From the IMG/VR virus record IMGVR_UViG_3300020438_000023, positions 1 to 64,000 of that record: a stretch of DNA of 64,000 nucleotides. One strand, given 5' to 3'. This document shows, piece by piece, positions 32,413 through 64,000 of the stretch. The position numbers and the translations under genes are program-made. The stretch is from a virus. Each line of letters opens with the position of its first letter. Position 1 is the first letter of the stretch. The notes beneath the pieces were generated by a model. It worked only from the letters and a program-made list of their open reading frames with translations, did no database searches and had not been told where the DNA came from.

Positions 32413-32420
32413 TATTTATG
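32413..32420 (-). promoter_or_regulatory. late promoter CATAAATA before the 111-aa gene
   Basis: CATAAATA lies 13 bases before the ATG of the 111-aa gene, overlapping the stop codon of the subtilase gene. Confidence 0.45.
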
Positions 32421-44242: not shown

Positions 44243-44427
44243 TATTTTGAAATGTCTATGGACGGTAGTACCGAAAGTGTTTCTTGTTGTTTTAAGTACA
44301 ACTTAACGTAACTTTTAGTTACATCTCGAAGAATTTTAATATCATCTATACTATCTATATCTCTAGAAAGTTTTTCATATTCAAAGGTCTTAGATAATTT
44401 TTTAAGTTCTATTTGATCAGGATTCAT
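44242..44427 (-). CDS. small hypothetical helical protein (61 aa)
   Basis: This 61-aa protein (MNPDQIELKKLSKTFEYEKL start; KILRDVTKSYVKLYLKQQET middle) is predicted to be mostly helical and charged. The ATG overlaps the preceding 92-aa gene by 11 bases and its stop overlaps the gene 13 start by one base, a strong sign that it is a translated gene of the neck operon. No family recognised. Confidence 0.7.
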   Translation of the reverse strand: MNPDQIELKKLSKTFEYEKLSRDIDSIDDIKILRDVTKSYVKLYLKQQETLSVLPSIDISK

Positions 44428-44695
44428 TTTGCAACTCCATTACTTTTTGTTGTAATTCTATGACTGCGGTTTTTAAAAAATCAATATCGAATTTTAGTTG
44501 ATTTTTTTCATTTTCTTCACGCCATTTTATATCTCTTAGTTCTAAGTAGGTTTCATATTCATCATCATCCGTATTAATTACTGCCCCAGTATCTTCATCT
44601 TTCAATAGATTTTCAAAATCTTTTACAAGAGCAAGACCTCTTTCTTCCTCTACATCATCTTCTATTTCAATAATCTGATCAAATTCGTCATTCAT
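44417..44695 (-). CDS. small acidic coiled-coil protein (92 aa)
   Basis: This 92-aa protein is acidic in its first half (EFDQIIEIEDDVEEERG) and ends in a clear coiled coil (NQLKFDIDFLKTAVIELQQK). In T4 the position before gene 13 is held by the fibritin gene wac, but no fibritin-like repeat or foldon is visible, so I do not equate them. It lies two bases after the 835-aa gene and overlaps the 61-aa gene. Confidence 0.7.
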   Translation of the reverse strand: MNDEFDQIIEIEDDVEEERGLALVKDFENLLKDEDTGAVINTDDDEYETYLELRDIKWREENEKNQLKFDIDFLKTAVIELQQKVMELQNES

Positions 44696-44697
44696 AA

Positions 44698-47205
44698 TTA
44701 AGCAAGTGCGATTACTCTTAAATCTTTTAATCTAACGGGATATGTTGTATCTTCTGTAGATGCACATAGTTTTATACCGAAAGCTCTAAAGGAAGGAAGT
44801 TTATTAATACTAAATTTCAGTTCTTGGAATTCTAATTCATCAGATTCAAATCCAACACTATCAGTTTTTGATAGTTTCTCGTCTGGAGTTCCATTACTCT
44901 TAGAAAGATCTTCAACATTTCCCTGATTATCAATATTATCAAATCCTGGGAATGGATAATAAATCATTTCTTCTTTACCATCGTCATCAATAGCATAGAA
45001 AGCTCTCAAATCACTTTTAGTATTTACATATGCACTAACATAAATTTGAAGAGATGTTGCTGCATTTTCTAAAGTTATGGGTCTCGTAGCATAAACAAAA
45101 GCATGAGGATCATTCTCCAAATCTGCAGTACGCTCATCATTAGCATAATCGGTAATGGGTTTATTCATTCTATTACCGATTAAAATAACAGCACATCGAT
45201 CCAAATCGATCATAGGAGATAATGTTGGACTAGTGGTTGTTAGATTGACGGATATATTAAGAGATTTATTTCCTTCAATTCCGTCAATTCCATCAAGAAG
45301 TTCAGTTTCATTAATACGGGAACAAATTAGTCTAGGAGAAGATAGGTATGTTTCTTCTTCTGTAGAAATTTTTTCAAATCCTTGATCGATAAAGGATTCT
45401 TGATTACCACCAATACTTCTTCCGGAAACAGTTCTTAGATTTAATTCTACTTCAGTACCGTTGACTTCTGTTGCTGAAATTTCTGGGTCGATAATTTCAA
45501 ATTGAATATTCTGAGTAGCAGTAATATCATCACCACCAGTAGATTTAGTTTCTTCAAAAAATAAATCAGGATATCCAAAAGGACTACTAGATCTATCAAT
45601 TCCAGCTTCTTGAGGGTCGATTCTTATAGTGTAATAGTCCAAATCAATTGGATTAGATACTGTTGCATCTTGCAATTCATGAGTTTTATTAATTCTTCTT
45701 AGAGAAATACCATTAAGTTCGTACTTAACAATATCTACACCTTTTTCATATGAAGTTCCTACGGTATTATCAACTTCTCTTGTAATTCCAATTAGATTAA
45801 GTCCATCAATTCCTGTGTATCCAATAATTTCTTCTTCAATTTGAATATATCCTGGATTTGTCGAAGATACACCTACGTTTTCAAACGTAGCAAAAATACT
45901 TAATCCAGTTTCACTATCAATGAGTAAATCATCAATAGGAATTGGTAAGGTTGAGTCTTCCTCAACATCTGCTGTTGTATCTACACTTGGATTGTCTGGA
46001 TCAACATCATCAATAGTAACGACATTTTCTAGTGCATACATTCCATGATTAGGATGATTCACTTTGATATGAAGACCATCATGAATAACTGTACTGTCGG
46101 TGAGTGTTAGTCCACCTGATCCAGCATTTAATCCAACAGTAGCTCCACTAGAGTTTTCATATGTAACTGTACTTCCTGAACCAGTTGTAAACCTACCTTG
46201 AATATCATCAACAATAATTTCGTTTATATCGCCAAGTTCTCCGATAGATAATCTTAAATTTCTTCCTAATCCACTTCCAATCGAGTTAGATGTTACCAAA
46301 TCTCCAACCTGATATCCAGATCCTCCATTAACTATGGTTGCACCAACAGCGACTCCATTTTGGACAGTTAAATTACAGGTAGCGTTTTTCCCTTCTCCTG
46401 TTATTTTTGATAACGGAACATCAAAATATGTAAGTCCACCAATCGATGGTGTGAGACCAATACCAGCATTAAAAACTGATACAGATGAAACAGCGCCAGC
46501 ATTCCCGATATAATTTCCTCTACCATCAGAATTTTCTTGTGTTACAGTAACACCAGTAGTAAATCCAACTTCATTTAATCCACCACTTAAAACTAATCTT
46601 ACTTGTCTAGATTCCATTTCAAATGCATCATTATCCAAAATAGAAACTTGATCGTTTCCTACGGATAATTCTGGATTATAGAAGTTTACATTTCCTGAAT
46701 TTTCTTTGAAGTCAGCTCTATAAAGAGTAAACTTCATATCTTCTCTTTCAGATGGTGTCCATGTTGCACCATTCTGAGATCTAAAGAATACTCCAGAATT
46801 TGGGTTTGCTGAAACGAAAACTGATTTAGAATCATCGTCATTCGCTTTAGTAACATCTATCTCACCCATCTTAGCAACCCATACTGAGTATTTTTTGCTA
46901 TTTGCAATAACAACTAATGAATGAAAAGTTTCTCCTTTTAGAAATACTGGTGATTTAAATTTAAAATTTGTTGGGGCTTCTGCATCAGGACTTACAACAA
47001 CATCTTCTGGTTCTAATGTAGTTTGAGAAAATGGATAAATGTCTTTTGCAGATGGATTTCCATTTACCGTAGGTCTCAGTTCTATAGAAACGGGTAAAGC
47101 AGAATCTCCTTCATAAAAATAAACGTCAACAGACGTTGCAAAAATCCCTTTAGGATTATCTACATAGAATGTTTGCGCTAACGGGTCAATTAGTTTATCG
47201 GACAT
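44698..47205 (-). CDS. virion structural protein with DPLAQTF domain (835 aa)
   Basis: The N-terminus DPLAQTFYVDNPKGIFATSV, with the following SALPVSIELRPTVNGNPS, is a segment I normally know from the C-terminal part of long DUF4815 tail proteins; here it starts its own gene. The rest is beta-rich with a GxGY module (near 46270-46370), a DVDPDNPSVDT stretch and a C-terminal domain (LKFSINKLPSFRAFGIKLCA) found in baseplate or tail wedge proteins. It follows the 84-aa S74 gene and has AATAAATA 37 bases upstream. It likely belongs to the baseplate/fibre-connector region, in the T4 gene 10-12 position. Confidence 0.78.
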   Translation of the reverse strand: MSDKLIDPLAQTFYVDNPKGIFATSVDVYFYEGDSALPVSIELRPTVNGNPSAKDIYPFSQTTLEPEDVVVSPDAEAPTNFKFKSPVFLKGETFHSLVVIANSKKYSVWVAKMGEIDVTKANDDDSKSVFVSANPNSGVFFRSQNGATWTPSEREDMKFTLYRADFKENSGNVNFYNPELSVGNDQVSILDNDAFEMESRQVRLVLSGGLNEVGFTTGVTVTQENSDGRGNYIGNAGAVSSVSVFNAGIGLTPSIGGLTYFDVPLSKITGEGKNATCNLTVQNGVAVGATIVNGGSGYQVGDLVTSNSIGSGLGRNLRLSIGELGDINEIIVDDIQGRFTTGSGSTVTYENSSGATVGLNAGSGGLTLTDSTVIHDGLHIKVNHPNHGMYALENVVTIDDVDPDNPSVDTTADVEEDSTLPIPIDDLLIDSETGLSIFATFENVGVSSTNPGYIQIEEEIIGYTGIDGLNLIGITREVDNTVGTSYEKGVDIVKYELNGISLRRINKTHELQDATVSNPIDLDYYTIRIDPQEAGIDRSSSPFGYPDLFFEETKSTGGDDITATQNIQFEIIDPEISATEVNGTEVELNLRTVSGRSIGGNQESFIDQGFEKISTEEETYLSSPRLICSRINETELLDGIDGIEGNKSLNISVNLTTTSPTLSPMIDLDRCAVILIGNRMNKPITDYANDERTADLENDPHAFVYATRPITLENAATSLQIYVSAYVNTKSDLRAFYAIDDDGKEEMIYYPFPGFDNIDNQGNVEDLSKSNGTPDEKLSKTDSVGFESDELEFQELKFSINKLPSFRAFGIKLCASTEDTTYPVRLKDLRVIALA

Positions 47206-47240: not shown

Positions 47241-47495
47241 TTATTTATTTGCTTTTAATGTATTAAGTTCACCTTTAAGTTCTTTAATGGCTTCTACTAA
47301 GACGGGTATCATTTGAATATAATCAACAGATAGATACCCATCTTCTTCGTAAACCATTTCGGGAAACTCTTTTTGAACTTCCTGGGCTATGAGACCATAC
47401 TCATAACCCTCTCTTTCATGATGTTTTTTCATTTTATCATTCCACTTATAAAGTGTTCCATTAAGATTACATACTTTATTCAAAAGAGAAATCAT
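47241..47495 (-). CDS. stand-alone S74 intramolecular chaperone body (84 aa)
   Basis: This 84-aa protein is the bulk of an S74 chaperone: NKVCNLNGTLYKWND, then YEYGLIAQEVQKEFPEMVYE, GYLSVDYIQMIPVLVEAIKE and a terminal coiled coil. It lacks the S-D-x-x-L-K cleavage site, which instead is found at the C-terminus of the upstream 2076-aa protein in another frame. Its ATG lies nine bases after that protein's stop. An ACTAAATA octamer lies 25 bases upstream inside the end of the 2076-aa gene, so separate late expression is possible. A stop codon in its own frame lies 18 bases upstream of the ATG. Confidence 0.8.
   Translation of the reverse strand: MISLLNKVCNLNGTLYKWNDKMKKHHEREGYEYGLIAQEVQKEFPEMVYEEDGYLSVDYIQMIPVLVEAIKELKGELNTLKANK
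47242..47249 (-). promoter_or_regulatory. late promoter AATAAATA before the 835-aa gene
   Basis: AATAAATA lies 37 bases before the ATG of the 835-aa gene, overlapping the end of the S74 gene. Confidence 0.5.
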
Positions 47496-47503
47496 AATAT
47501 ATT

Positions 47504-50500
47504 TCAGACTCTAAACACTCTATTTAGTGCGTTTTGGATGATCATAATGTTTGTCTTCAGTAAGAGGTCGGATCTTCTTCCTCTTCTTCCTCTTCTTCTT
47601 CCTCCTCCTCTTCTTGCTGCTCTACCTGGTGGTCTAGGTGGACGTGCTGGAGGTCTTGGTCTTGGTCTAGGTCTAGGTCTCCGTGGATAACCTCCACCTA
47701 ATCTTCTTCTCCTATTTGCTCTTGGCGTTGGTCTTGGTGCAGGTCTTGGACGAGACCTTCTCCGTGGTCTTGGTTTGCGTGGCTGGAATCTCTTTATACT
47801 ACCATTCTTAAGTGGTAATTTATTAACAGGGAATCCTCGTTTCTCAAACTTCTTCTTACCTCTCTTAGTAACTTTTTTAGTTGCTTTCTTGTTTTGTGTT
47901 GCAAGAAGTGTTGCACCATACTTCCAGAGTTGGGGTTTACCCTTGTTGTAATAGCCATAATCCTTATCGCCTGGTTTAATAACATCCCTGACGTTAGACT
48001 TCTTACCCTTTCTCTTGAGTTTCCTTGCCTTCTTGGAGGTATCAATAACCTTCATCACACCTTTACGATTTTGTTTAATCGCAATGGTAGTTGTCTTCTT
48101 TTTACCTCCAGTTGGTCTTGCTGGTTTACCTCTACCTGGGTAATTCTTAGGTGGAAGAGGGTATCCAAACTCCCTGAATGCTCTCTTAGCATCCTTTTTA
48201 CCACCTAGTCTTCTAATTTGGTTAAAGTTAAGGTATCTAGTTTTTCCCTTATTTTTACCCTTTTTAATGGTATATGGAACATACCAAATAGGAAGTGCTT
48301 TTCCTTTCTTATCAAAGACGTATTTAACCTTAGCAGTTTTGACTTTAGGTCTATTCTTCTTGGGTGGTGGCGTCTTGCCTCCTGGTTTACACCTTTTCTT
48401 ACCCCTTCCTTTACGCCGACATGGACGTGGATCCTTCGGCACTTTAGGACCTTTAGGTGGGTCAACGTGTCTCGGTGGCTTCGTCCCTCCTGGTGGAGTG
48501 GGACTGATTGGTGCTGATTCTTCTTCGTCTCCTGGATCGGGAGTTACTGGACGTGCTCGACCACCTCTACACTTCCTAAGTACTCTTCTTCTTCCGACCT
48601 CTGCATTTGGTCTGCGAGTACATCTACGTCCTCTTCTGACTTTCAATCTCCGAAGGTGATATCTTGTCTTAAGACCACCACCGGTACATGTAAATTCATC
48701 CTCAGCCATTGTGGTGAGTTCTGCCTTATCATCAGAGTTAGTTTTGGAGTCAACTAATCTAAATGTTTTTTTACCAGCACTAAATGCATAACCAAATTTT
48801 CTCTTTCTCACACCATCTGCTGCTGGAAGGAAGAATGAACCTGCAACAGTGCCCTGACCGTCTGTGATAAGTCGTTTATTAACAACTCTACAAACGGCTT
48901 TACTCTTACGTCCTTTTAGACGCATCTTACGGTTAATAAATCCCCAATATCTTCCTCTTTGTTTGAGGGACATGATGAAAGTATCAATATTCAGAATCGT
49001 AGAATTGGATGCATAACTTGTAGGCATCGCCGTCTTTGTATATGGGTTCTGACCATATACTTTTAATGGAGTATTAACTGGACCTTCTTTATGATTAATT
49101 GGACAAACTCGTCCAGAGAATCTCATTGCCCAACGCCATCCTCTAACGGATCTAACTCTGATTCTTCTCCTTCTTACTTTAACTGCAATAGATCCTCTTC
49201 TACGGAATCTTCTCCTTCTTGCACTAGTTACACGTTCACCAACCTGGAACGTTCCCTTGATCATCTTAACTTCGATAAGCTTAGGAGTAATGGTTTTCAT
49301 TACTGGAACACCATCAAAGAAAGCGTAAACCCTTGTGTTGGGTTTCATCTTCTTCGCTTTGAATTGAATGTTCCGCATTCTCATCCACTTACGGACGGCT
49401 ACGGATACAAAGCGTCTTCCTTGGCGTACTCTTCTTGCCCAGAATCTACGTCTTATAGTTCTCTTACCCCATCCCTTTCTTCTAGCACCACCTCTCTTAA
49501 TCTTAAACCGATGCTTTCTTCTTCTATTAATTTTTAATCTCTTTTTCCGTCTAAAGACTCCTCCAGCTGCTCTAATTCTTCTTCTTCTCCTTCTCCTCCT
49601 ACGGTTAGCAGTTGTTCCACTATATTCTCCACCACGACGACGCCCTCCCTTAGGAAGATTACCTTTCCAATGATGTCTCCAATCTTTCCAAATAACACCA
49701 CCCCAACCGAAGTTAGGATTCCATCTCATTTTTCTCCATTGCCGTCTAGTGAACCAGAATTTACCTCTTGAATCTTTTACTCTTCTTCCACCCAAGTTCT
49801 GGCGCACCCAAAGGTCAGAATCTGGTTGAAGTTCTAATTCACCTTCATAAAATATATCAGCAAAAGTATTAACTGGAACGTTTTGAGTTGCATATGGTTG
49901 ATGAATCTCAATTTGCTCATCATAATCGAGAGTAATCACTCTACCAGTCATTTTGATATTTTCACCAATAATATTGGTATCAAATTCTGGATCAAGAGTA
50001 ACAGAATCAATAACGTCAGTTCCAATACCTAGTGCGCTGAATGTTCCTAACTCTAAGTCAATTTGAGTAGTATATGGAGCAGCCCTTAATTCACCCTCTT
50101 CAGTATCTACAGAGTTCTTAAGAATTGTTACCTTTAGTTGATTTTCTGCATCAGAGAAATCATCAACAAAGAATCCAGACTTAAACCTATTAAGACCATT
50201 ACCATCAGTCACCTTCATATTAGCAGTACTTTGCTCAAGAAGGTTTAAAGATGTATAGTACTCAAGTTGCTTAATACGATCTTCTAGATCTCCAATATCA
50301 TCCATTGTATAGCGTTTATGGTCCGCTAATTCAATACTGGCGTCTTCTACATCTTCAAGGAATGGTGGATGAATAATTTGAGCAACTTCAATAGAATCAT
50401 CCTTTGCTCCAGGAGGTGCTGGATTTTCTGATGGAGGACCTTCTACATTGTGAAACTGTCCTGCTTCATCTAAGAAAATTTTATCAACTCTAGCTAAGTA

Positions 50501-53500
50501 GATTGAGTAATCAAGTGTGATAGTTTCGTCTGATGCAAGAATAAAATCAGCAGAGTTTCCATCACCATCAAAAGATCTGCCAAAAAATTCAAATGGTGAT
50601 CTAGAATTTTCTGTTACATTATAAAAATCAACTCTTGGTCTAATATCAATAATATCACTATGTCTAAGGTCTCCAGTTTCTGGAATATCCTTATAGTCAA
50701 AATTAGAGTAGGAATCTACCGTTGTGATATCTCCTGTGTCTGCAGCATCATATGTGCAGAACTCGTATATAATTTTTAATTTTCTCTTAGGTTCTTTAGC
50801 ATCTTTATTTCTTACAAGTCTAGCATAATCATATATTGTGTCTTCAAATCCATCTGCTAAATCAAATTTATTTGTAATGTTTAAATCTGATCCAGTTTCT
50901 TTTACAAAACTTGCAGTTACTCCAGACTCTTTAAATGTAATTTTCTCACCAGGTTCATCAAATGCATCATCATTTGCTGGTATGAATCCTATAGTAGTAT
51001 CATTTATTTTTTCAATTACAATACCGATAGCTTCACTAGTTGCTCCTTCAAATCTTTCACCAATAATTAAATCATCGGTAGACTGAGTAGGGCCAGAGAA
51101 GGTGCTAAATTCTAGTCTCTTAACATCTGGTTCTGCAGTATTATCAGATTCAAAAATTCCTAAGACCTCGATAACATCGGGTCTCATCAAAGCAATCTCT
51201 TCATCCTGTACTCTAGTACCATATGGATAATTTCCATATGTCAGTCCATCGTTTAATGTGGTTCCACCAACACCAGATTGACGAACTCTTGATTTATCAA
51301 TAATAAGAGATCCAATTCTATTTCTAATTTTTACTTTAGATGTGTTATTAGATTTGTTGCAAGTTGCTACAAGAACACCAGCAGTATTAGATCCAAGTCC
51401 TTTTATGGTTAATTGTGTAGATGACCCATTGAAGGTCATTTTATCATCAGTCAGTTCTTCAATAGTTCCATCATTTCTTGTTAGGACATATCTTCCTGCT
51501 GTGAAAGGAAGGAAAGTAAAATCAGTTCCTGATTGTATAGCATTTGTTGCACCATCAGTAATATTGATATCAAATGTTTTTCTAACGACAATAGTAGAAT
51601 CTTCAAGATTTACTTTCGCAACAAAATCTTTTGGAAACTCTGTATAAAGAGTATTATCGTCAGAAGTTTCAATTTCTGTTTCAATTTTTTGGAAATCTGT
51701 AGTCTGTACTGCAGAAGTTGGGAGAGCACCAGCACAGATTCCTGTTACTGAAGTAATCGCCTCCAGTCTCATGTTTGTTTTAGCTACAGCAGAAACTTTA
51801 TTATAGGTTACAATTTCTGGGTTTCCAGAATTTGTATATGATACAAGATCACCAACATCAAATACTTTATCTAGATTGAAGTTTGCAACACTTACCGTAG
51901 AAACACCACTAGATGCTCCAGTTATACTTACATTTAAACCTGGTTCTGGAATATCCTCAGAAGCTTCAAGTATAGTATCTGCACTAAAGAAAGTTCCATT
52001 TGCATTTACTGCATGAATAGATCTTACTTTATTAATTCCATATTCTGTTGCATCCTTTACGACTCTTGTATTTTCTTCTACACCATTAAAGATTAACTTT
52101 TCACCTACGTTGAATCTACCTCTTACATCATAAGCGGTAGCAATACCAGAATTATTAACATCAAATCTGAGGTGTCCAGTTGCTCCAGTTGCTTTTCCTT
52201 TAATATGAATAGGAGTTGTTAATTTTACTGGCTCATTCAGTTCAAATTCAACATAGGGTCTAACATCATATAATGTAAGATCCCAAGTGTTTAAGTCTAA
52301 ATTTTCTCTTTCATATGTTCCGTCTTCTAATTCATAATCATAAACTCTAGCAACACCAATTTCTTTACCGGCAGCTGTTGCTTGAGATCCACCAACTCTT
52401 TCATCTCTAAGAGTGATATAAAAACTTGTTTGAATTCCTAAAGTTGGATATCCAAATACTCTGTTTATTGCTAATGTTGGTCCAGAGTTATATGCTAACT
52501 GCTGATCTTCAAACTCTTTAGTTTCTCTTGGTTTATCAAATTCAAGATATGTTGGTGTATTAATTTCAATTTGATACCCATTAACATAGGCTTTAAATGG
52601 GGAAATCTTATAGATTCCCATATCATCTGTAGGTTCTGATCCCTGTAAAGTAAGTTCTCCAGGTTCATATAACCCATCATTACCTTCTTTATCATTTAGA
52701 GCTTCTAAAATCTCTACCTCTGGTTGCTCTACATAGAAGTCTCCAGCAACATCATCAACTCTTTCTGCAATGTATTTTTCATTATCTGTTTGTTGTCTGC
52801 TTCTATTATTGTTGACAATCTGACCGTTTTGAACGACCATTAATTCAACAAAATTCTCTACATCGTCGTCTTCATCAAGGTCAATCTTTACTAGATCAAT
52901 TTCAATTCGTAATCTATCTGCACCTGGTGCTGTAAAGTTAGAAAATCCTTGTGCATTATCAAGAAGAGCATCATCATCTAAATGTGTTGCAATCTCTTCT
53001 GTAATAATTAAACCTACTCTATATGATGGTTTATCATCATACTGATCAAGTAGTAAGGTTTTTTCCTCAGACTCTACAAAGTGTCCTCTAATATAGTAAA
53101 CACCTTCATTAATATGAACTGCAGATCCAACTTCATTTGGACTTTCTTCAACACATCTTGCAAATGGAGCATTCTCTCCAAATACAATTAAGTTTTCTAA
53201 ATTTTCTTGAATTGCTGCATCTGGATCATCAGAATCATATTCATCCGCTAAGTTATTAGTAGTCTGAATTCCATCTTCTGTTAATAGGTTTTCTCCTGGA
53301 ATAAAACCAGTAAACTCAGAAGATCCTGAATCTGAACTTAGATATGTAATATAATAAGTATCAAATCCCCTTTCAGAACTAGATCCCGGTAAATATGAAT
53401 CGACTCTTGCTCTAATTCCCGAACTTTCGCCAACAATAACTTCGTCTAATAAATCCGCAGCATATTCTAAGATTGACTTTCCATTGAAGGAATCATCAAC

Positions 53501-53734
53501 CATAACACATGGATATTTTTCATAATATTGAATTTCTCCACCAGTTATAGCTTTCCCTTCTTTAAAGAAATGATCACTAAATTTCTCTAACTGACCTTGC
53601 AGCATAGACTGCATAGTCGTAAGTTCTCTTGCCTGAACAGGATACCCTGGTTTAAACAGAACGCGATAATAATCATTATCGCGATCAAAATCGTCATAAT
53701 AAGGAGAAACGTTAAGATTTAGTTCCTGGGGCAT
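47504..53734 (-). CDS. DUF4815 tail protein with very large Arg/Lys-rich C-terminal region (2076 aa)
   Basis: The N-terminus (SPYYDDFDRDNDYYRVLFKP followed by GYPVQARELTTMQ) is a clear DUF4815 start, known from long tail or baseplate fibre proteins of cyanophages. Residues 1 to about 1310 are acidic-neutral and beta-rich. From about 1311 to 2054 the protein becomes extremely basic: nine arginines in a row at 1378-1386, blocks such as RRKKRLKINRRRKHRFKIK, and a Pro-Arg tract near 2020-2040. Inside it, ordinary family segments survive (NTRVYAFFDG near 1475; ITDGQGTVAGSFFLP). The last 22 residues, SDLLLKTNIMIIQNALNRV plus three more, are the start of an S74 chaperone with the S2055/K2060 dyad, then a stop. 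Its stop precedes the 84-aa S74 gene. Confidence 0.88.
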   Translation of the reverse strand: MPQELNLNVSPYYDDFDRDNDYYRVLFKPGYPVQARELTTMQSMLQGQLEKFSDHFFKEGKAITGGEIQYYEKYPCVMVDDSFNGKSILEYAADLLDEVIVGESSGIRARVDSYLPGSSSERGFDTYYITYLSSDSGSSEFTGFIPGENLLTEDGIQTTNNLADEYDSDDPDAAIQENLENLIVFGENAPFARCVEESPNEVGSAVHINEGVYYIRGHFVESEEKTLLLDQYDDKPSYRVGLIITEEIATHLDDDALLDNAQGFSNFTAPGADRLRIEIDLVKIDLDEDDDVENFVELMVVQNGQIVNNNRSRQQTDNEKYIAERVDDVAGDFYVEQPEVEILEALNDKEGNDGLYEPGELTLQGSEPTDDMGIYKISPFKAYVNGYQIEINTPTYLEFDKPRETKEFEDQQLAYNSGPTLAINRVFGYPTLGIQTSFYITLRDERVGGSQATAAGKEIGVARVYDYELEDGTYERENLDLNTWDLTLYDVRPYVEFELNEPVKLTTPIHIKGKATGATGHLRFDVNNSGIATAYDVRGRFNVGEKLIFNGVEENTRVVKDATEYGINKVRSIHAVNANGTFFSADTILEASEDIPEPGLNVSITGASSGVSTVSVANFNLDKVFDVGDLVSYTNSGNPEIVTYNKVSAVAKTNMRLEAITSVTGICAGALPTSAVQTTDFQKIETEIETSDDNTLYTEFPKDFVAKVNLEDSTIVVRKTFDINITDGATNAIQSGTDFTFLPFTAGRYVLTRNDGTIEELTDDKMTFNGSSTQLTIKGLGSNTAGVLVATCNKSNNTSKVKIRNRIGSLIIDKSRVRQSGVGGTTLNDGLTYGNYPYGTRVQDEEIALMRPDVIEVLGIFESDNTAEPDVKRLEFSTFSGPTQSTDDLIIGERFEGATSEAIGIVIEKINDTTIGFIPANDDAFDEPGEKITFKESGVTASFVKETGSDLNITNKFDLADGFEDTIYDYARLVRNKDAKEPKRKLKIIYEFCTYDAADTGDITTVDSYSNFDYKDIPETGDLRHSDIIDIRPRVDFYNVTENSRSPFEFFGRSFDGDGNSADFILASDETITLDYSIYLARVDKIFLDEAGQFHNVEGPPSENPAPPGAKDDSIEVAQIIHPPFLEDVEDASIELADHKRYTMDDIGDLEDRIKQLEYYTSLNLLEQSTANMKVTDGNGLNRFKSGFFVDDFSDAENQLKVTILKNSVDTEEGELRAAPYTTQIDLELGTFSALGIGTDVIDSVTLDPEFDTNIIGENIKMTGRVITLDYDEQIEIHQPYATQNVPVNTFADIFYEGELELQPDSDLWVRQNLGGRRVKDSRGKFWFTRRQWRKMRWNPNFGWGGVIWKDWRHHWKGNLPKGGRRRGGEYSGTTANRRRRRRRRRIRAAGGVFRRKKRLKINRRRKHRFKIKRGGARRKGWGKRTIRRRFWARRVRQGRRFVSVAVRKWMRMRNIQFKAKKMKPNTRVYAFFDGVPVMKTITPKLIEVKMIKGTFQVGERVTSARRRRFRRRGSIAVKVRRRRIRVRSVRGWRWAMRFSGRVCPINHKEGPVNTPLKVYGQNPYTKTAMPTSYASNSTILNIDTFIMSLKQRGRYWGFINRKMRLKGRKSKAVCRVVNKRLITDGQGTVAGSFFLPAADGVRKRKFGYAFSAGKKTFRLVDSKTNSDDKAELTTMAEDEFTCTGGGLKTRYHLRRLKVRRGRRCTRRPNAEVGRRRVLRKCRGGRARPVTPDPGDEEESAPISPTPPGGTKPPRHVDPPKGPKVPKDPRPCRRKGRGKKRCKPGGKTPPPKKNRPKVKTAKVKYVFDKKGKALPIWYVPYTIKKGKNKGKTRYLNFNQIRRLGGKKDAKRAFREFGYPLPPKNYPGRGKPARPTGGKKKTTTIAIKQNRKGVMKVIDTSKKARKLKRKGKKSNVRDVIKPGDKDYGYYNKGKPQLWKYGATLLATQNKKATKKVTKRGKKKFEKRGFPVNKLPLKNGSIKRFQPRKPRPRRRSRPRPAPRPTPRANRRRRLGGGYPRRPRPRPRPRPPARPPRPPGRAARRGGGRRRGRRGRRSDLLLKTNIMIIQNALNRVFRV
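47521..47528 (-). promoter_or_regulatory. late-promoter-like ACTAAATA before the 84-aa S74 gene
   Basis: ACTAAATA lies 25 bases before the ATG of the S74 gene, within the last codons of the 2076-aa gene. The spacing equals that of other late octamers here. Confidence 0.3.
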
Positions 53735-55316: not shown

Positions 55317-55324
55317 TATTTATG
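55317..55324 (-). promoter_or_regulatory. late promoter CATAAATA before gene 8
   Basis: CATAAATA lies 23 bases before the gene 8 ATG, overlapping the stop codon of the giant gene. Confidence 0.5.
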
Positions 55325-58300
55325 AAAGATAATTGGAGGCTTTTAATGGATTCTTTCTTCTCAAAATAGGTGATGTTTCGATACCAATAATTCCATTATC
55401 TCTCTTAATATCATATGCTTCAGGGAATGGTCTAGAAATACTATCTAGTCTACCCCAAGAGAAGTTTGCAAATGTTTGTCTAGAGAGGAATGAAGAAAGT
55501 CCAAGTTGTGAATAATCTTCAACAACAGTAACAACCTGAGTGTTATTTTCAATAATCAGTGTTGCACCATCAGCGACTGTAGTAGAAACTCCTAATCCAA
55601 CAGAATAAGAACCAAGTCTTGTTAAACTTGCAACAAAATCGTCACTGAATATAACGATTGGAGTTCCTGGAACAATGTCATGAACTTGGAATACACTATC
55701 AATAAATTGATTTCCTTCAACCAAGTCAACTCCATCTATTTCAATTGAAGTAACGCCATATCCAACTGTTGTCGCATTTCCGACCGTGGAATCTCGTATA
55801 GTAAAGAAGTCACCTGTTCCAATTCCACTATAATCAATTGTATTTCCAGTACCAACAATTGTTTCATCTTTCAAAGGAGAGTTTTCTGGAATAGCAAACT
55901 CAAAGATGAGACCTTGAGAAGATCCTGCTCCAATTGTTGTTGTTCCGACTCCAATAACTTCACCAAAGTCTCCTGCAAAGTCAACTCTAAATATTGTTTC
56001 TGATTTTGGAGTTGGTGGTGAAATTAAAACTGGTGGTGGATTATTATCATCATATCCAGTTCCACCAACAGAAATATTAATGGTTGCTACTTTACCAGAT
56101 GCGATAATGATATTAGCTTCTGCTTGAGTTCCACTATCATCTTTTGGCGCTCCGATAGATATTGTAGGAATGTTAAAATACCCAGATCCTGCATTGGTAA
56201 GGGATATTTGAGTAACAATTCCAGATGTAACTGAAGCAGTTGCTATAGATTCTTCTGTTTCATCTTGATCGATAATATCAACGGTAGTTGTCCAATTCAG
56301 TTCTGAATTTTCTCTCGCATTATCGAAGAAAGTTCTTGCGCCTTCAATCCAAATTTGTGTACTTGCAGTACCAACATCGTAAATGATATTAGTTAGAGGA
56401 AGAATTGCTGCCTCATAAATATCTCTTGCTTTGCTAACTTCTTCACCATCGATAATGAGATCAGTGGTTGCACGACACCAATTAACTGGTCTCTCAACAA
56501 ATGGATCATTACTGATTCCAACACCACCATAAAGATAAGTATCAACCGAGTCAGTAGAAGTAACTGATTTAACTGATCTATCTTTTTGTTTTAGGCTAAT
56601 ATCCTCACTACCGATTGTGAGGATATCTCCAGGAGAAACAGTCTCAAGAATATCTACAAATTCAACATCAACATCTCCAGTTCCTCTATAGAAGATAATT
56701 TTACAGACATCTCCTAGTTTTGGAGCTTCTGAGAAGCGAAGTGTACTACCTCCTGGGAATAAATATGCCTCTCCAGGAACTTGAAGAATATCATTAATAA
56801 AGACTAGAAGCGTTGCTTGAACATCAATCAAAGATCCTTTAGCAGCTTTAATTGATGTTCTAACTCCATCAAATTTAATAGCAAATCTAGTTGCATCTCC
56901 ATTAAACTGAGGACTGATATCATCAACAACCTGAAGATCTCCAATTGTCCATCCTGTAAATTGATCAGTTTGGGTCTTAGTAATATAGAAGTTGAATTCA
57001 TCAAAGTCTAATGTTGTTGGTAAAGCAAGTGTTGGTTTAGCAGAAGGACTTATCACTGGTGGAGCATATGCTGCACCATCACCAATAATTGTAGTAACAA
57101 TTCCAACTAGATTGGAAATTGAAGTTGCAACATCAGAACAACTATCAAGAGTGTATGAAGATCCATTTTCATAATCAATAGAAGCATCTGTAAATTGGGT
57201 AACAGAGACTGCAATACCCTGATATGAAGTAGGTAGAATTTGATTGTTTATAACGAATGTTGAAATACCAGCAAGATAATCATAAGTTGCAATGGTTTCT
57301 ATTGTTTCTCCAGTTACATAATTTAGAGGTCCATTCCAATACTTATTTCCTGCTGCAACAGAATTAAAGTTTCCTCCAAAGAAGAGATCATTTGCTAACG
57401 CATCAACAATAAATCCAGTATCTCTTTCACACTTAGTTTGATCATAATCTGGATTGGAAAGTAGGGAAGGATATGTAGCAGTTGCATATCCAACAGCTTC
57501 TTTAACAAGGAACTGTCTGTTAAAAGTAAGAAGATTTCCAGCATCAGCGAATCTTCCGTGATACATGTAAGGAATACCATCCGTTCCACCAACAGAAACT
57601 GTTAGTACATTGTTAATTTCATATCCATATCCAACATTTTTTATATCAAAATCAGTTACACTAGATCCTTCACCAACTACAACACTAATCTTTGCAAATC
57701 TTCCTCCAGTATCTCCGATTGAAGTTGTAGAATATGTTGTAGCCAGATTATCGTATGGAAGAGGATCATCAAAATCAACAGTTAGATACTTCGCAACTTT
57801 ACCACCTCTAGCATAAAAGTGACCTAATGTAGAAATACCAGTATTAACTTCAAACTCAGTATCACTATTAACTCTTCTTACACTCACAAACTGCGAAGCA
57901 GGATCTGACTGACTATCAGAATTATTGTTGAGTCTTGGGGCAATAATTATACCCTGAGCAGTTCCACCACTAGTGTAGAAGTTAACGGTGGTAGAAACTC
58001 CAACATTAACAGCAAATTCGGTAGCACTATTAACAGAAATTACTCCTGTACCGTTATATGCAGGATCTGTTGTTCTTGGGTGAGTAAGAATTCCCGCTCC
58101 ACCATCATATGCACAAGTAAATGCAAGTCCAGTTAGAATAACTTCACTGAGTTTGCCGAATGTGCTATAACCATGTCCCACAGAAGTGGTAACAGTCATA
58201 ATTCCAGTTATGTTATCATATTGAGCATTTGTTACGGTAAGTGGTAGAGCATAATCGCAAGTCATTGCGATTCCAGAAAGAACAATATCATTACCCTTAG

Positions 58301-61300
58301 ATAATCCGTGCGCTGTAGATGTTGTAACCGTTGTTAAACCTGTTATGGAAGTATAACCAACGTTAGAAATATCTCTAGGAGCGTAGAAGACCTCAGAATT
58401 TGTAACAGCCACTCCAGTAACTCTTCCTCTAGTAACAAGAGCAGTTCCTATCGCAACTTTACTAGATGCCTCTACTGTTTCTTCACGAATGTAGACATTA
58501 ATATTAGTTTGAATACCAGTTCGATATCCACCACCAACGTTAGAGACGTTAATAGCACTAATGGTTCCCGCAGAAGACACTGTAGCAGTTCCAGCAGCAG
58601 ATACTAGTGATTGATACCCAAATCCCTTTGTAGACCCAACAGAGACGATCCTACCGCCAACAGGAAGACCTTTAATAATGATATCATCTTCTCTATCATA
58701 AGATGTTTCATCAAAGATGATATTTGTTACTCCACTGTCTTCTTCTAAAGTGTAGTTTCCCTCAATATCAACATTGAGTTGATCTACCTTAGGTGATTGG
58801 AATAAATCATTCACTGTAATAATAGCATTACTTGCCGATAATCCATCAACACTTTGACCACCAACTTTTAATTCAAAAGAACTCTTAATTCCTGTGAATT
58901 GATCTTCAATACCGTCAAAGATATAGTTTTTGTAGTATGGATCATTTGTAGAATCAACTTGACCATTTCTCATGAACGATCTTCCACTAAATCTAGAGAA
59001 AGTAGTGATTCCACTATAATCTCTTTGATCTGGAGGATTATCTGGAGATCCTATCGGAGTTTTTCCATATGGAGCCTCAGCAAAACTAAGTGTATTATCG
59101 ATAATATTGTAATTACCAATAACCTTAGTAATTTTTGCAAATTGTACGTGATCTGCAAGTAGTGTACCTAAAACTGGCCTCTGAACATATACATCATTAT
59201 CAGAACCGCCATATCCAACAATGGATACTCTTACGATTTCATCGTCAATCTGAAGAAAATCTCCACTAAAGAATCTTTCTGGTTGCTCAGTTAAAGTAAG
59301 AACATCTTGAACAGTTGTAAAAGTATTACCAGCACCCGTTGTAGTAGCAGTAGATACAATAGGAGATTGGATCATATTATCAATAGTGATCAGAGTCTTA
59401 GGATTCTGATTCTTTGCGGTTATATAATGATCGGATCCAACTCCAAGAGTTGTAATATTAAAAGGTGTTGGAATTAAAGACAATGCCTCTGTAGCACTGG
59501 CTGCAACTCTTACAAGTAGTTCATCCTCTTTGATGATAAACAATTTAGATGGTAATATATCAGTAACTCCAATTCCAGGAACATCTGTAGAAGCAATTCC
59601 AATTGGTTCATTAAGAACATCATAAGAATATACAACTTCCTCTCCTGTTACAAAGAAGTGTTGAGGCAACTCAATAGTATTTTCAACGACACTAGTAATA
59701 CCAATATTAGATCCATCAAATTTCTTTTTGAAAATTGGATTTCCCTCATGGAATAGATTGAAATCTCTTATAACCGCATTCTGCGTTCCTTGATAGTCCG
59801 AATTTCCAGTCAGAATATCTGCATTGATCATATCAATATGATTATTACTTACTCTTTCATCTCTAATTCCAAGATGCTGAGCATAAACTCTAACTTCACA
59901 ATCAATCGCATTATTTGCTGTAAAGTAAATTGATGTAACTGTTCCTGCAACACCTGCAGTAACTACACCAACTTCACCATCAGTAAATATTTGACCATAT
60001 TCTGAATAATGTGCAGTTGTTGATGATGAAACAGTTACTAATTCGGAAAGTTGATACTTATTATTTGTAGTATCATCAATACTAATGATATAATAACCGC
60101 TACTGAAATCATCAATGCCTAAAATTCCATTGAAGTGTGAAGAAATTAAATTACCACCTGTACTATCTACGGCGTCAATTGATGTGTAATTAGATTCTAC
60201 AATAGCAGTAGTAAGTTTAGTGCTTCCCTCAGTGGTAAATCCAGAAGGTTCAGATGCAAGAGATATTCTTAAAGCATTGACCTCGGCAGCTATTGCAGGG
60301 TTATCTGGAATCAAATCAACCTTTACATTAGATCCATCAATGTAAGCATGATATGTTCCGATACCATCAGCGGAGTACTCATTTAAAGTATCTGTAGTTA
60401 ACTGACCGTAATCTTGGAATGTTACTTCTGATCCATCATGAACTAGACTGATTTCGTCTAATTCATACACATTACCACTACCTTCTTCAATTTGAACAAG
60501 CAATTTAGAAGATCTATAATCTGTTGGAATAGTCGCAATCGTGGTAGTAGCACCAGAAGAAACAATACTATGTTCTAATTCAATATCAACAACATTACCA
60601 AACGTAGTAGTTCCGATTCCTGAAGTAAAATCAGAAATACTGTGAGTAATGAAACTTAAATCATAGTCATTAATTTCAAATCTTTCTGGGTAGAATCTCA
60701 ACTGTGCTTCATCTTCAAATATAGCAAAATCAAAACTTCCTAATTCATAAACAGTTTCTACACGTCCATATTGATTGATAAAGAACTCAGTATCGTTATG
60801 AATTGCTGTTACAACATATAATTGTCTTTGATCTGTGAATCTGCTGTCTCTAGCAAATATTAAATATTTTCTAGCTCTAGATTCGGTTAATTTGAAAGTA
60901 TCGATTACACTAAATTGATCACCCCGTGGATCACTATTAAAATCATCACTAATATCATCAATAACAAGAACTCTGTTACCAATAGACTTATTAAAGTCTT
61001 GTAGTTCTCTACTGTTGAATACCATACCCGTAGAGAATCTCTTACTACCAATTAATAATGTTTCATCAACAGTGATATCAAAGTCGAATACACAATTTGT
61101 ATTCACTACTCTTGAGAAGTCTGCAATAGAAACAAAGTCTCCTCCATTTTGAGATGTGGAAATTCCACTATAGGCAAGATCCTGAGACTCTAACTGATAA
61201 TTACTAAATCTCTTCCATCCAACAAGATGATTAAGTCTTTCGACTTCTTCTTCCCAAATATTTTCAGTTACTGTACTTTCAATAGCATAAGAGAATCTCT

Positions 61301-64000
61301 GATAATAGAAACTATCTTGAATCTTGTACTCATTAGAACTTAAGAAACTATGGTTGTCCTCATATCCTTGTACAACAACAGCAGATGGTTCAATCTTGTA
61401 GTATAAGTCTGTGAGAGTAATATCATCAATTTTAGCAACTGTTCCACTTTTACTTCCAACTACCTCTTCATTAAGTTCAAAATACTGTTCTCCAAATATT
61501 TTCAAGATTTCAGAATCTTCATTATACTTTTGAACTTCTGCCTGGGCTCCAGTAGTTTTTCCTGTAATTATTTCTCCAGGAATATATGGAATTTTCTTTA
61601 CTGTTATTGCAAATGTTGGAAAATAAATTTCAGGAACAACAATTCCTGTAGCACTAATATCATCGTATTCCCCAAGAATTTCTGCAGATCCTACAGATTT
61701 AGACATATCAAGTTTAATATTAGCATTAGATCCGCCAAAATTTGGATCAATTTCTGTGATTTGAAATAAGTCATAATCAAAGTCAGCACTATTGAAAGTT
61801 CTATTAGAACTTCCCAAAGTCTTTGATGCACAACCTTCGACTAATACATTATTACCAACAGTAAATGGAAATGTAGTTCCTGTACTAAATTGAGTCTTAA
61901 ATGTTAAAGTTGCAATTTTAGTAGTGGTATTAAGGATAATATTTTTTATACTATAACCATTAGAATTATTAATAGGGATTATGATTGGTTTATCATTAGA
62001 TAAATCATTTGTATTTTTAATAATATCTACATTTCCATTAAGATCATAGTCTAACAGTAATTCATCTATAACTTTTTTAGTTACGCTATCTCTTACGATA
62101 AGATCTGGAGCTACATTGTAGTTTAATCCAGTAGTTATTGTCTCTATCCCATCAAAAGAAAGTTTTTGATCGAGAATTAATATATCTGGAAGTTTTGCTG
62201 TTGGACTCAACGTGGGATCTGTTGGATAGTCCCAACCAACATTTTCAGTTTTGAATGTTTTTTCAGCACCAATTGATTCACTTAATATTCTAATTTTTGA
62301 TCCTTCTCCACCACCTTCACTAACTATTGTCGTTACTCCAACAATTGTATCGTAATTATTTCCTGCATTTGTTACTAAGATATCAAATATTGGTCCAGTT
62401 GTATTAGTAGAGTTTGTAACATATTCTAAACTACTATTTTCTGCTGTAAAAGAAACAATGCCAATAGCACTTTGTGGAGTATCAAACACGAAAGAAGATG
62501 TTGCTGCAGAAACAACTACATGATTCGCATTAATATTACTATTAAGGAAAGAAATTTTTGTAGAATCAACAACGTTGTAATCATCGATAATTAAATCTTT
62601 CTTAGATTGAGTCATCCCAAGATCATTTTTGGGAATCAATTTATAAAATAATTGCTCTGGGGTAAGTTCATTAACCAATATTTCTACATATGCATCAGAA
62701 TCTAATCCTAGTCTTCCCGACGAAGTAACAACAAAGTTACCGTCTCTATCAGTTAAGTACTCTCTTTGATATGTACTATCAAAGAATACTTTGAAATCAA
62801 ATGCTGATTTTAAAGTAGTTCCATCAATATAAGCTAGTGAAGAATCTCCAACATTAAATCTTAAAATTTCATTTTTAATGGATCTGATTTCTGGATTTAC
62901 TAACCTCAGTCTAAAGGTTCCAGTAGTTGTTAAATTAACATTTTTAGTTTCTTCACCTACAGAATCTTGATAAGATGATGATAATGAGAAAATATTTCTA
63001 CTAATGTAGTTAGTATAATAAATCCTATTATTGTCTAATCCACCAACAGTAGAAGAAACTACAATTACTTTATCACCATCACGATAACCATGATTATCTG
63101 ATTGTATTTGATTATTTTCTGTATCTATATTGATCAGGGTTTTTTGATCAATCAATATTCTATTTGTTACATCATTATAAAATACATCATAATCTTTTCT
63201 TCCTCCTGGAAGAATTATTGATCTAAAACGATCACCAACAAGCAATCCATGAGTTTCTCCAGTAGAAACTGTACATCTAGTTCTCGAAACTTCAACAGAA
63301 GCATGAGATCTTTGAGTTTTAAAACTATGATGTTTACCTGTACCAACACCAACAAAATAGAAAGGTTCTGCGTTTATATTAGTTCCAACACCAACAAATG
63401 AGATTGGTTGTCCAGAATTCCTAAAAGATTCAGTTCCAACACCAAGCTTAACTGTTGATATTCCTATTCTATTTCTATTAAACGCGAAAGCAAAGAGTTC
63501 AGTATTATCTGCTAAAGTAGTGGATCCAACACCATTAGTTGATATTGAAAGATTATCTCCAGTATTTGAATAATATACAATTTTCTCCCCTGTTTTAAGT
63601 CCATGGCTGGGAATAAGAATAGATCTTGTGGGGATGGATATAATAGATTTTCCTGTTCCAGGATTACTAATGGTTACAGATGTTGTTATTCCAAAACCAG
63701 CAGTTGTTCCTATTCCAACAGACTCTGATGGATCAAAATATAATTCTCTATCTTGTTTAGATATTCCACCATTTTCAGTATTAAGAACAATCTCAAATCT
63801 TGTAGGTACATGAGTTATCGATGTTTCTAAAGAGTGTGCTACTCCAACTGTACCATCATGTTCTCTTAAAACTCTTAACCTTGATCTACTAAGATCAACA
63901 TTAAGAACTTTCATTCTTTCATCTTCAATTTGAATAATATCGTTTTCGCGTACTTTTGATAAAGATTCTGTTTTTACTGGTATGAAAGTTGTGGGACCAG
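55320..64000 (-). CDS. giant baseplate-region protein at the gp7 position, 5' end outside window
   Basis: The frame is open from the stop at 55320 to the window edge, at least 2893 codons. The frame continues past the first ATG visible (63914) with coding-like sequence (PTTFIPVKTESLSKVREND), so that ATG is internal. The protein is beta-rich with many Gly-Ile-Gly/Thr-Thr turns. GxGY modules occur near 56030-56220 and 57600. A helical module shared with the 1690-aa fibre (C-x-RD, DALxxDL, GGN) lies at about 57070-57560. It stands directly before gp8, the place of T4 gene 7 (1032 aa), but I see no direct similarity to T4 gp7, so the gp7 label is positional. It is likely part of the baseplate periphery. 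It is the largest gene in the window. Confidence 0.85.
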   Translation of the reverse strand, partial: GPTTFIPVKTESLSKVRENDIIQIEDERMKVLNVDLSRSRLRVLREHDGTVGVAHSLETSITHVPTRFEIVLNTENGGISKQDRELYFDPSESVGIGTTAGFGITTSVTISNPGTGKSIISIPTRSILIPSHGLKTGEKIVYYSNTGDNLSISTNGVGSTTLADNTELFAFAFNRNRIGISTVKLGVGTESFRNSGQPISFVGVGTNINAEPFYFVGVGTGKHHSFKTQRSHASVEVSRTRCTVSTGETHGLLVGDRFRSIILPGGRKDYDVFYNDVTNRILIDQKTLINIDTENNQIQSDNHGYRDGDKVIVVSSTVGGLDNNRIYYTNYISRNIFSLSSSYQDSVGEETKNVNLTTTGTFRLRLVNPEIRSIKNEILRFNVGDSSLAYIDGTTLKSAFDFKVFFDSTYQREYLTDRDGNFVVTSSGRLGLDSDAYVEILVNELTPEQLFYKLIPKNDLGMTQSKKDLIIDDYNVVDSTKISFLNSNINANHVVVSAATSSFVFDTPQSAIGIVSFTAENSSLEYVTNSTNTTGPIFDILVTNAGNNYDTIVGVTTIVSEGGGEGSKIRILSESIGAEKTFKTENVGWDYPTDPTLSPTAKLPDILILDQKLSFDGIETITTGLNYNVAPDLIVRDSVTKKVIDELLLDYDLNGNVDIIKNTNDLSNDKPIIIPINNSNGYSIKNIILNTTTKIATLTFKTQFSTGTTFPFTVGNNVLVEGCASKTLGSSNRTFNSADFDYDLFQITEIDPNFGGSNANIKLDMSKSVGSAEILGEYDDISATGIVVPEIYFPTFAITVKKIPYIPGEIITGKTTGAQAEVQKYNEDSEILKIFGEQYFELNEEVVGSKSGTVAKIDDITLTDLYYKIEPSAVVVQGYEDNHSFLSSNEYKIQDSFYYQRFSYAIESTVTENIWEEEVERLNHLVGWKRFSNYQLESQDLAYSGISTSQNGGDFVSIADFSRVVNTNCVFDFDITVDETLLIGSKRFSTGMVFNSRELQDFNKSIGNRVLVIDDISDDFNSDPRGDQFSVIDTFKLTESRARKYLIFARDSRFTDQRQLYVVTAIHNDTEFFINQYGRVETVYELGSFDFAIFEDEAQLRFYPERFEINDYDLSFITHSISDFTSGIGTTTFGNVVDIELEHSIVSSGATTTIATIPTDYRSSKLLVQIEEGSGNVYELDEISLVHDGSEVTFQDYGQLTTDTLNEYSADGIGTYHAYIDGSNVKVDLIPDNPAIAAEVNALRISLASEPSGFTTEGSTKLTTAIVESNYTSIDAVDSTGGNLISSHFNGILGIDDFSSGYYIISIDDTTNNKYQLSELVTVSSSTTAHYSEYGQIFTDGEVGVVTAGVAGTVTSIYFTANNAIDCEVRVYAQHLGIRDERVSNNHIDMINADILTGNSDYQGTQNAVIRDFNLFHEGNPIFKKKFDGSNIGITSVVENTIELPQHFFVTGEEVVYSYDVLNEPIGIASTDVPGIGVTDILPSKLFIIKEDELLVRVAASATEALSLIPTPFNITTLGVGSDHYITAKNQNPKTLITIDNMIQSPIVSTATTTGAGNTFTTVQDVLTLTEQPERFFSGDFLQIDDEIVRVSIVGYGGSDNDVYVQRPVLGTLLADHVQFAKITKVIGNYNIIDNTLSFAEAPYGKTPIGSPDNPPDQRDYSGITTFSRFSGRSFMRNGQVDSTNDPYYKNYIFDGIEDQFTGIKSSFELKVGGQSVDGLSASNAIITVNDLFQSPKVDQLNVDIEGNYTLEEDSGVTNIIFDETSYDREDDIIIKGLPVGGRIVSVGSTKGFGYQSLVSAAGTATVSSAGTISAINVSNVGGGYRTGIQTNINVYIREETVEASSKVAIGTALVTRGRVTGVAVTNSEVFYAPRDISNVGYTSITGLTTVTTSTAHGLSKGNDIVLSGIAMTCDYALPLTVTNAQYDNITGIMTVTTSVGHGYSTFGKLSEVILTGLAFTCAYDGGAGILTHPRTTDPAYNGTGVISVNSATEFAVNVGVSTTVNFYTSGGTAQGIIIAPRLNNNSDSQSDPASQFVSVRRVNSDTEFEVNTGISTLGHFYARGGKVAKYLTVDFDDPLPYDNLATTYSTTSIGDTGGRFAKISVVVGEGSSVTDFDIKNVGYGYEINNVLTVSVGGTDGIPYMYHGRFADAGNLLTFNRQFLVKEAVGYATATYPSLLSNPDYDQTKCERDTGFIVDALANDLFFGGNFNSVAAGNKYWNGPLNYVTGETIETIATYDYLAGISTFVINNQILPTSYQGIAVSVTQFTDASIDYENGSSYTLDSCSDVATSISNLVGIVTTIIGDGAAYAPPVISPSAKPTLALPTTLDFDEFNFYITKTQTDQFTGWTIGDLQVVDDISPQFNGDATRFAIKFDGVRTSIKAAKGSLIDVQATLLVFINDILQVPGEAYLFPGGSTLRFSEAPKLGDVCKIIFYRGTGDVDVEFVDILETVSPGDILTIGSEDISLKQKDRSVKSVTSTDSVDTYLYGGVGISNDPFVERPVNWCRATTDLIIDGEEVSKARDIYEAAILPLTNIIYDVGTASTQIWIEGARTFFDNARENSELNWTTTVDIIDQDETEESIATASVTSGIVTQISLTNAGSGYFNIPTISIGAPKDDSGTQAEANIIIASGKVATINISVGGTGYDDNNPPPVLISPPTPKSETIFRVDFAGDFGEVIGVGTTTIGAGSSQGLIFEFAIPENSPLKDETIVGTGNTIDYSGIGTGDFFTIRDSTVGNATTVGYGVTSIEIDGVDLVEGNQFIDSVFQVHDIVPGTPIVIFSDDFVASLTRLGSYSVGLGVSTTVADGATLIIENNTQVVTVVEDYSQLGLSSFLSRQTFANFSWGRLDSISRPFPEAYDIKRDNGIIGIETSPILRRKNPLKASNYLS

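Follow-up and report, generated by a model that had tools for sequence, protein, structure and literature searches.

A basic last third and a split Peptidase_S74 domain in a putative baseplate protein of a Kyanoviridae-like virus

How a phage tail protein could come to carry a last third dense in arginine and lysine, and what that charge might do, are the questions raised by a 2076-aa open reading frame (47504..53734, minus strand) in the 64,000-nucleotide stretch of viral DNA analysed here, which we call the window. Lysine and arginine make up 32.5% of residues 1311-2054, and aspartate and glutamate 4.4%, bearing out the original prediction of a basic last third; the corresponding values for residues 1-1310 are 8.2% and 18.3%. 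A run of nine arginines lies exactly where it had been placed (1378-1386), and the family motif NTRVYAFFDG does lie inside the basic region, starting at residue 1466 rather than near 1475. The charge is also as unusual as had been supposed: it reaches approximately +45 net per 100-residue window, whereas no locus exceeds +22 among 80 DUF4815 family loci, most of them partial, compared in the same way.

Identity and layout of the basic protein

The reading frame matches PF16075 (E = 3e-52, 178.2 bits against a cut-off of 30), and positions 1-1380 of the 2056-position phrog_358 profile align on its residues 1-1685. It follows gp8 and precedes gp13/gp14, as in Kyanoviridae, and we annotate it, from these matches and its gene position, as the N-half polypeptide of a DUF4815/VrlC tripod-type baseplate protein. 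The phage's terminase is 87% identical to those of S-SCSM1 and S-SM2 and its capsid protein 80-83% identical; judging by sequence, it is a Kyanoviridae-like, T4-like virus akin to the viruses of cyanobacteria, and it presumably comes from the sea and infects cyanobacteria. The closest structural reference is PDB 9euf (“DUF4815 domain-containing protein, ORF65”; 14 further entries hold the same protein), which the 2076-aa protein matches at 1.4e-14. This is ORF65 of Staphylococcus phage K (PhageK_118, hereafter K_ORF65), whose residues 559-626 are matched by a profile of aa 1218-1683, the part of that match within the basic segment being short. In a published assignment gp151 is the wedge, gp150/gp149 the arm and gp148 the tripod (PMC9241854); the gene order of phage K agrees with it, and K_ORF65 is therefore probably the tripod protein. 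VrlC has been described as an integral component of two-layered baseplates (PMC7029224), and together with the homology to K_ORF65 this suggests that the window's protein is a virion baseplate component.

By alignment, the basic third is made of two parts: a converted family segment (aa 1313-1690; 48665..49798, minus strand) and an inserted orphan part (aa 1691-2054). The region preceding both (aa 1-1312; 49799..53734, minus strand) is ordinary DUF4815 sequence but unusually acidic, at approximately -10 net per 100 aa against approximately -4 in cyanophages. The converted segment, which includes NTRVYAFFDG, carries approximately +22 per 100, against -6 to 0 for its counterpart in homologues; cyanophage homologues align over 1311-1685 and have T/S-rich or neutral residues where the window has lysine or arginine. 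Disorder is predicted at 1310-1380, 1391-1449 and 1508-1536, and the remainder of 1313-1690 is predicted to form an ordered beta domain with a net charge of +27 over 205 ordered residues, so that many of the basic residues sit inside it. A structure predicted for aa 1218-1683, with pLDDT 60 and confidence for about 180 residues, has no fold match in the PDB, though the sequence profile ties its first part to 9euf. The loop preceding FFDG is mildly Arg-rich in many family members, reaching at most +18 per 100 (L100 aa 1341-1440, others near aa 1340), and the charge conversion may have begun there.

The 364-aa insertion, which lies between the two family halves, begins with a fast-evolving linker (aa 1691-1799; 48338..48664, minus strand). 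HINT (bacterial intein-like) domains marked by Cys...SHNK occur in this linker in four relatives, singly in L003, L007 and L008 and doubly in L006, but in neither the window nor L004. They span aa 1750-1875 in L003 and 1780-1905 in L008. Gain, loss and duplication of the domain have all occurred inside a single clade; with Lys after His-Asn, the domains may cleave rather than splice. The linker is followed by a basic orphan module (aa 1800-1988, VKYVFDKKG...LPLKNGSIKRFQP; 47771..48337, minus strand; alignments A2 and A4), for which no relatives were found in phages, GTDB genomes, Pfam, PHROGs, NCBIfam or the PDB outside the window's own clade and a sister lineage. Its poor model (pLDDT 50) gave no structural match. 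In L008 a weak Tox-URI2 match (E = 0.079) was disregarded. The basic third closes with a Pro-Arg and Arg-Gly tail (aa 1989-2054; 47573..47770, minus strand). Expansion by repeats, which had been proposed for the whole region, holds for the RGR tail at 47573-47623, the sole tandem repeat found in the reading frame, and mostly fails elsewhere. In S-SCSM1 (L011) the DUF4815 protein has a long Pro-Arg repeat linker at approximately aa 1690-1760, where the window's gene is split, and the site therefore appears prone to P/R-rich insertions.

Gene fission and the lineage of the charge

The two family halves, usually though not universally one polypeptide, are separate reading frames here (47504-53734 and 44698-47205). 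The second encodes the C-half of the ancestral protein as an 835-aa gene (44698..47205, minus strand) that aligns with phrog_358 profile positions 1421-2055, matches K_ORF65 residues 789-964 and is acidic (-8.1 net per 100 aa). In Kyanoviridae both halves form one gene in the same place, between gp8 and gp13 (S-SM2 SSM2_099, Bellamy 113, S-SCSM1 SSCSM1_19). The N-half is 41% identical to that of S-SM2 and the C-half 42-45% identical to the Kyanoviridae proteins, which differ in being single genes of approximately 2400-2650 aa with no Peptidase_S74 (S74) sequence, no orphan module and a near-neutral counterpart of 1313-1690. K_ORF65, sequence-matched to both halves, is likewise a single chain (1152 aa) with neither S74 nor the module. 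Directly after the C-half gene, a 92-aa reading frame (44417-44695, minus strand) carries -21.7 net per 100 aa and is a possible acidic partner. Elsewhere, a 642-aa subtilase (PF00082, E = 1.3e-21) lies among tail fibre genes at 32416-34344 on the minus strand.

Between the two halves lie two pieces of a Peptidase_S74 domain. The large reading frame ends ‘SDLLLKTNIMIIQNALNRVFRV*’, and its residues 2055-2076 (47504..47572, minus strand) align with the first 22 residues of the intact S74 domain encoded by gene 21257-23446 of the same phage, after which it stops. A separate 84-aa reading frame (47241..47495, minus strand) supplies the remainder (PF13884, E = 5.5e-10, 39.8 bits against a cut-off of 22, profile 17-58 of 58). 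S74 is otherwise a continuous domain at its client's C-terminus, as in the endosialidase intramolecular chaperones (K1F type; also MYRF), and a Ser-Lys catalytic pair, with Lys at +5, has been described for it (PMC3742443). The window keeps the Ser-Asp cut site and the pair, as SD..LK (S2055, K2060), on the first chain, and L003, L006, L007, L008, L115 and L116 do the same, but it divides the domain over two reading frames, with the trimer-forming rest on the other chain. Every locus of the charged clade that reaches the domain has it split. Neither the S74 remnant nor the split of the ancestral gene figured in the original prediction, which was made from the sequence alone.

The window's species is represented in IMG/VR by L001, L002, L005 and L017. 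Five further loci, L003, L004, L006, L007 and L008, are relatives that share 56-86% identity with it across the region. The sampled charged clade amounts to approximately six distinct lineages, the window counted. In a sister lineage (L027, L115, L116, L119) the orphan module is likewise present, alongside an ordinary 1313-1690 segment and an acidic linker; the split S74 and separate C-half of this lineage are seen in L115 and L116. The charged clade, the sister lineage and the two together are each recovered with 100/100 support, S-SCSM1 branching next, in a tree for which composition bias is flagged for L007 and the window. The basic segment is confined to that one clade, in line with the lineage-specific adaptation originally suggested. 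The sister has the insertion and the split without the charge, which places insertion and fission before the charge in the order of events.

Charge shifts across the baseplate

The conversion of one segment coincides with opposite shifts around it. Compared with sister L116, aa 1313-1690 have 76 sites more positive and 16 more negative (p = 1.6e-10), whereas aa 1-600 have 25 more positive and 66 more negative (p = 2e-5) and the C-half 37 and 85 (p = 1.6e-5); these tests treat sites as independent and one branch is one evolutionary event, so they describe association, not cause. Against the sister, aa 1069-1312 likewise have 8 sites more positive and 24 more negative. Taken together, the two halves remain close to neutral in the charged clade, their net charges summing to +11 in the window, -24 in L003 and L007 and -30 in L008, with -24 in the sister's L116.

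A second comparison, with the three cyanophages S-SM2, S-SCSM1 and Bellamy, extends the acidification to neighbouring proteins. The N-half is more acidic by 5 to 6 net charges per 100 aa (mean shift approximately -5.7), the C-half by 4 to 5 (approximately -4.4) and the gp8 baseplate wedge (PF09215; 53741..55294, minus strand) by 2 to 3 (approximately -2.5). The large gp7-like wedge protein (phrog_2885; 55320..63914, minus strand) shows a small and uneven shift in the same direction, of 1 to 3 per 100 against these cyanophages (mean approximately 2.4) and approximately 1-4 overall, and the adjoining 1573-aa reading frame (G63899-; G000:C1:63899(-)) is also acidified. Shifts in gp3, gp13-15, gp17-23, uvsW and uvsY are at most 2.1 per 100 (all p ≥ 0.2) and those in gp47 are -1.4 and -3.2 (p = 0.6); gp14 exceeds its sister counterpart in acidity but not its cyanophage counterparts. 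These comparisons show a compensating charge shift limited to baseplate proteins, with head, neck, sheath and tube unchanged, and proteome-wide acidification was rejected on the unshifted non-baseplate proteins. The proposal that the basic region binds acidic partners gains indirect support from the acidified N- and C-halves, gp8 and gp7 of the same clade, and loses its candidate scaffold, gp22, which is unchanged. The giant gp7-like wedge, one gene of approximately 4000 aa in cyanophages, appears to be encoded here by two (55320-63914 and the 1573-aa reading frame), which would make it the second gene of this baseplate operon to have been split.

We tentatively favour a reading in which the tripod docks electrostatically within the baseplate, and give it slightly less than even weight. 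On this account the linker joining the two halves of a one-piece gene received an S74-terminated module in the ancestor of the charged clade and its sister; the C-half became a gene in its own right, and the S74 chaperone came to be shared between two chains. Later, and in the window's clade alone, the segment before the insertion turned strongly cationic, and the N-half, C-half, gp8 and gp7 more anionic. The cationic zone of the assembled protein would dock, by charge, against surfaces that have turned acidic on its own N-half, on the separately encoded C-half and on the gp7/gp8 wedge, replacing the lost covalent link between the halves with an electrostatic joint. The S74 pieces would bring about trimer assembly in trans and afterwards cut the trimer at Ser2055-Asp2056, leaving an Arg-rich free end. 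The physical steps (docking, trimerisation, assembly in trans and cleavage) are ones that we infer, and the acidic and basic shifts could share an unrelated cause. The detached C-half of the sister works without the charge, which counts against docking. Seawater ionic strength strongly screens charges, and a docking joint would therefore be short-ranged.

The main rival, which may coexist with docking and which we consider unlikely although worth serious weight, is that the cationic third lies exposed on the rim of the baseplate, where it would help adsorption non-specifically by binding anionic components of the host envelope (LPS phosphates, acidic polysaccharide); its acidic neighbours would then do no more than prevent its collapse onto the virion or aggregation. 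The tripod gene of phage K adjoins receptor-binding protein genes, VrlC genes border a host recognition cluster in pelagimyophages (PMC7029224), and modular inserts with a terminal S74 chaperone are characteristic of fibres and spikes; the predicted disordered R-rich stretches and the Pro-Arg/Arg-Gly tail would also suit an exposed arm. Such an arm needs no simultaneous acidification of gp8, gp7 and the C-half, however, and many of the basic residues lie in the ordered beta domain rather than in arms alone. A composite, in which a two-polypeptide S74 autoprotease-chaperone acting in trans is coupled to a co-evolved electrostatic latch, possibly opened by competing anionic host envelope, strikes us as doubtful.

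We regard as improbable a third account, in which the basic region plays no part in adsorption but either serves assembly or packing, by neutralising a baseplate that would otherwise be over-acidic while it is assembled, or binds nucleic acid (DNA or RNA) inside infected cells. Its polycationic R/K composition, RG/RGR repeats and disorder do resemble nucleic-acid-binding tails, with K codons and AGA dominating. Against this, neither Pfam, PHROGs nor NCBIfam yields a nucleic-acid-binding family match, the orphan module has no PDB relative, and the DUF4815 baseplate context is far from the genome channel. The only family matches for either basic part are phrog_358 and a marginal phrog_877, and the DNA binding once proposed for the region finds no positive evidence here.

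The locus amounts to an experiment of nature in supercharging a virion protein, in which an ordinary structural domain became strongly cationic along one branch; with the anionic turn confined to baseplate neighbours, it becomes possible to test what electrostatics contributes to the assembly or triggering of the baseplate. We found no reports of such a supercharged domain, or of a two-chain S74, in a literature search whose coverage left out most subscription journals.

A probable two-chain S74, reading frame and selection

The two S74 pieces, aligned to the intact domain of gene 21257-23446, tile one domain with approximately 10 residues of overlap, and in the window's clade the 7-16 nt before the stop are open in both frames. 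Both observations would fit recoding, by frameshift or ribosomal bypass, that joins the pieces and makes the split only apparent, yet we consider this very unlikely. In L115 and L116 the small reading frame's phase has a stop between the first reading frame's stop and its own ATG, so that a simple frameshift cannot join the pieces; the candidate matched hop codons vary among loci (AAT, ACT, GAT); and the small reading frame conserves its start and length in seven loci, with ATG in 7/7. Nor is there DNA duplication, above shuffles, that would make the overlapping ends. The sister stop codon and the differing hop codons make programmed frameshifting or bypass unlikely. Because simple frameshifting cannot join the pieces in the sister, the likeliest reading is that the S74 works as chaperone and protease in the form of two chains, for which family membership suggests trimerisation and cleavage here. 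If this is true, a chaperone termed ‘intramolecular’ can act between molecules.

Within the charged clade, dN/dS in the basic family segment is mostly 0.1-0.25, with exceptions in 1313-1440 (0.74 for L003 against L007, 0.41 for the window against L008); part of this loop may be weakly constrained, given the L003-L007 value. It is 0.09-0.16 in the orphan module, 0.07-0.33 in the 22-residue S74 start and 0.3-0.6 in the Pro-Arg tail. These estimates show a basic region maintained by purifying selection. DNA-level purine pressure as the source of the lysines and arginines was rejected, as third positions at four-fold sites are not enriched in purines: their purine fraction is 0.46 and 0.56 in the two basic stretches, compared with 0.48 in gp7 and 0.54 elsewhere in the reading frame.

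A sequencing, assembly or frame error as the source of the basic stretch, which the indel-riddled same-species contig L005/L118 might seem to favour, is refuted and retains virtually no probability: all relatives that reach the region keep it in the same open frame, including loci only 56-86% identical, dN/dS is well below 1, and family residues continue in frame through 1685. Homologues without basic enrichment, which the original prediction had named, together with a frame shift here, as a threat to its claim, do exist, but no shift into another frame is seen, and in close relatives the basic region is conserved by purifying selection. L005/L118 (IMGVR_3300050343_000190) itself has its reading frames broken by many indels, a pattern like that of uncorrected long reads.
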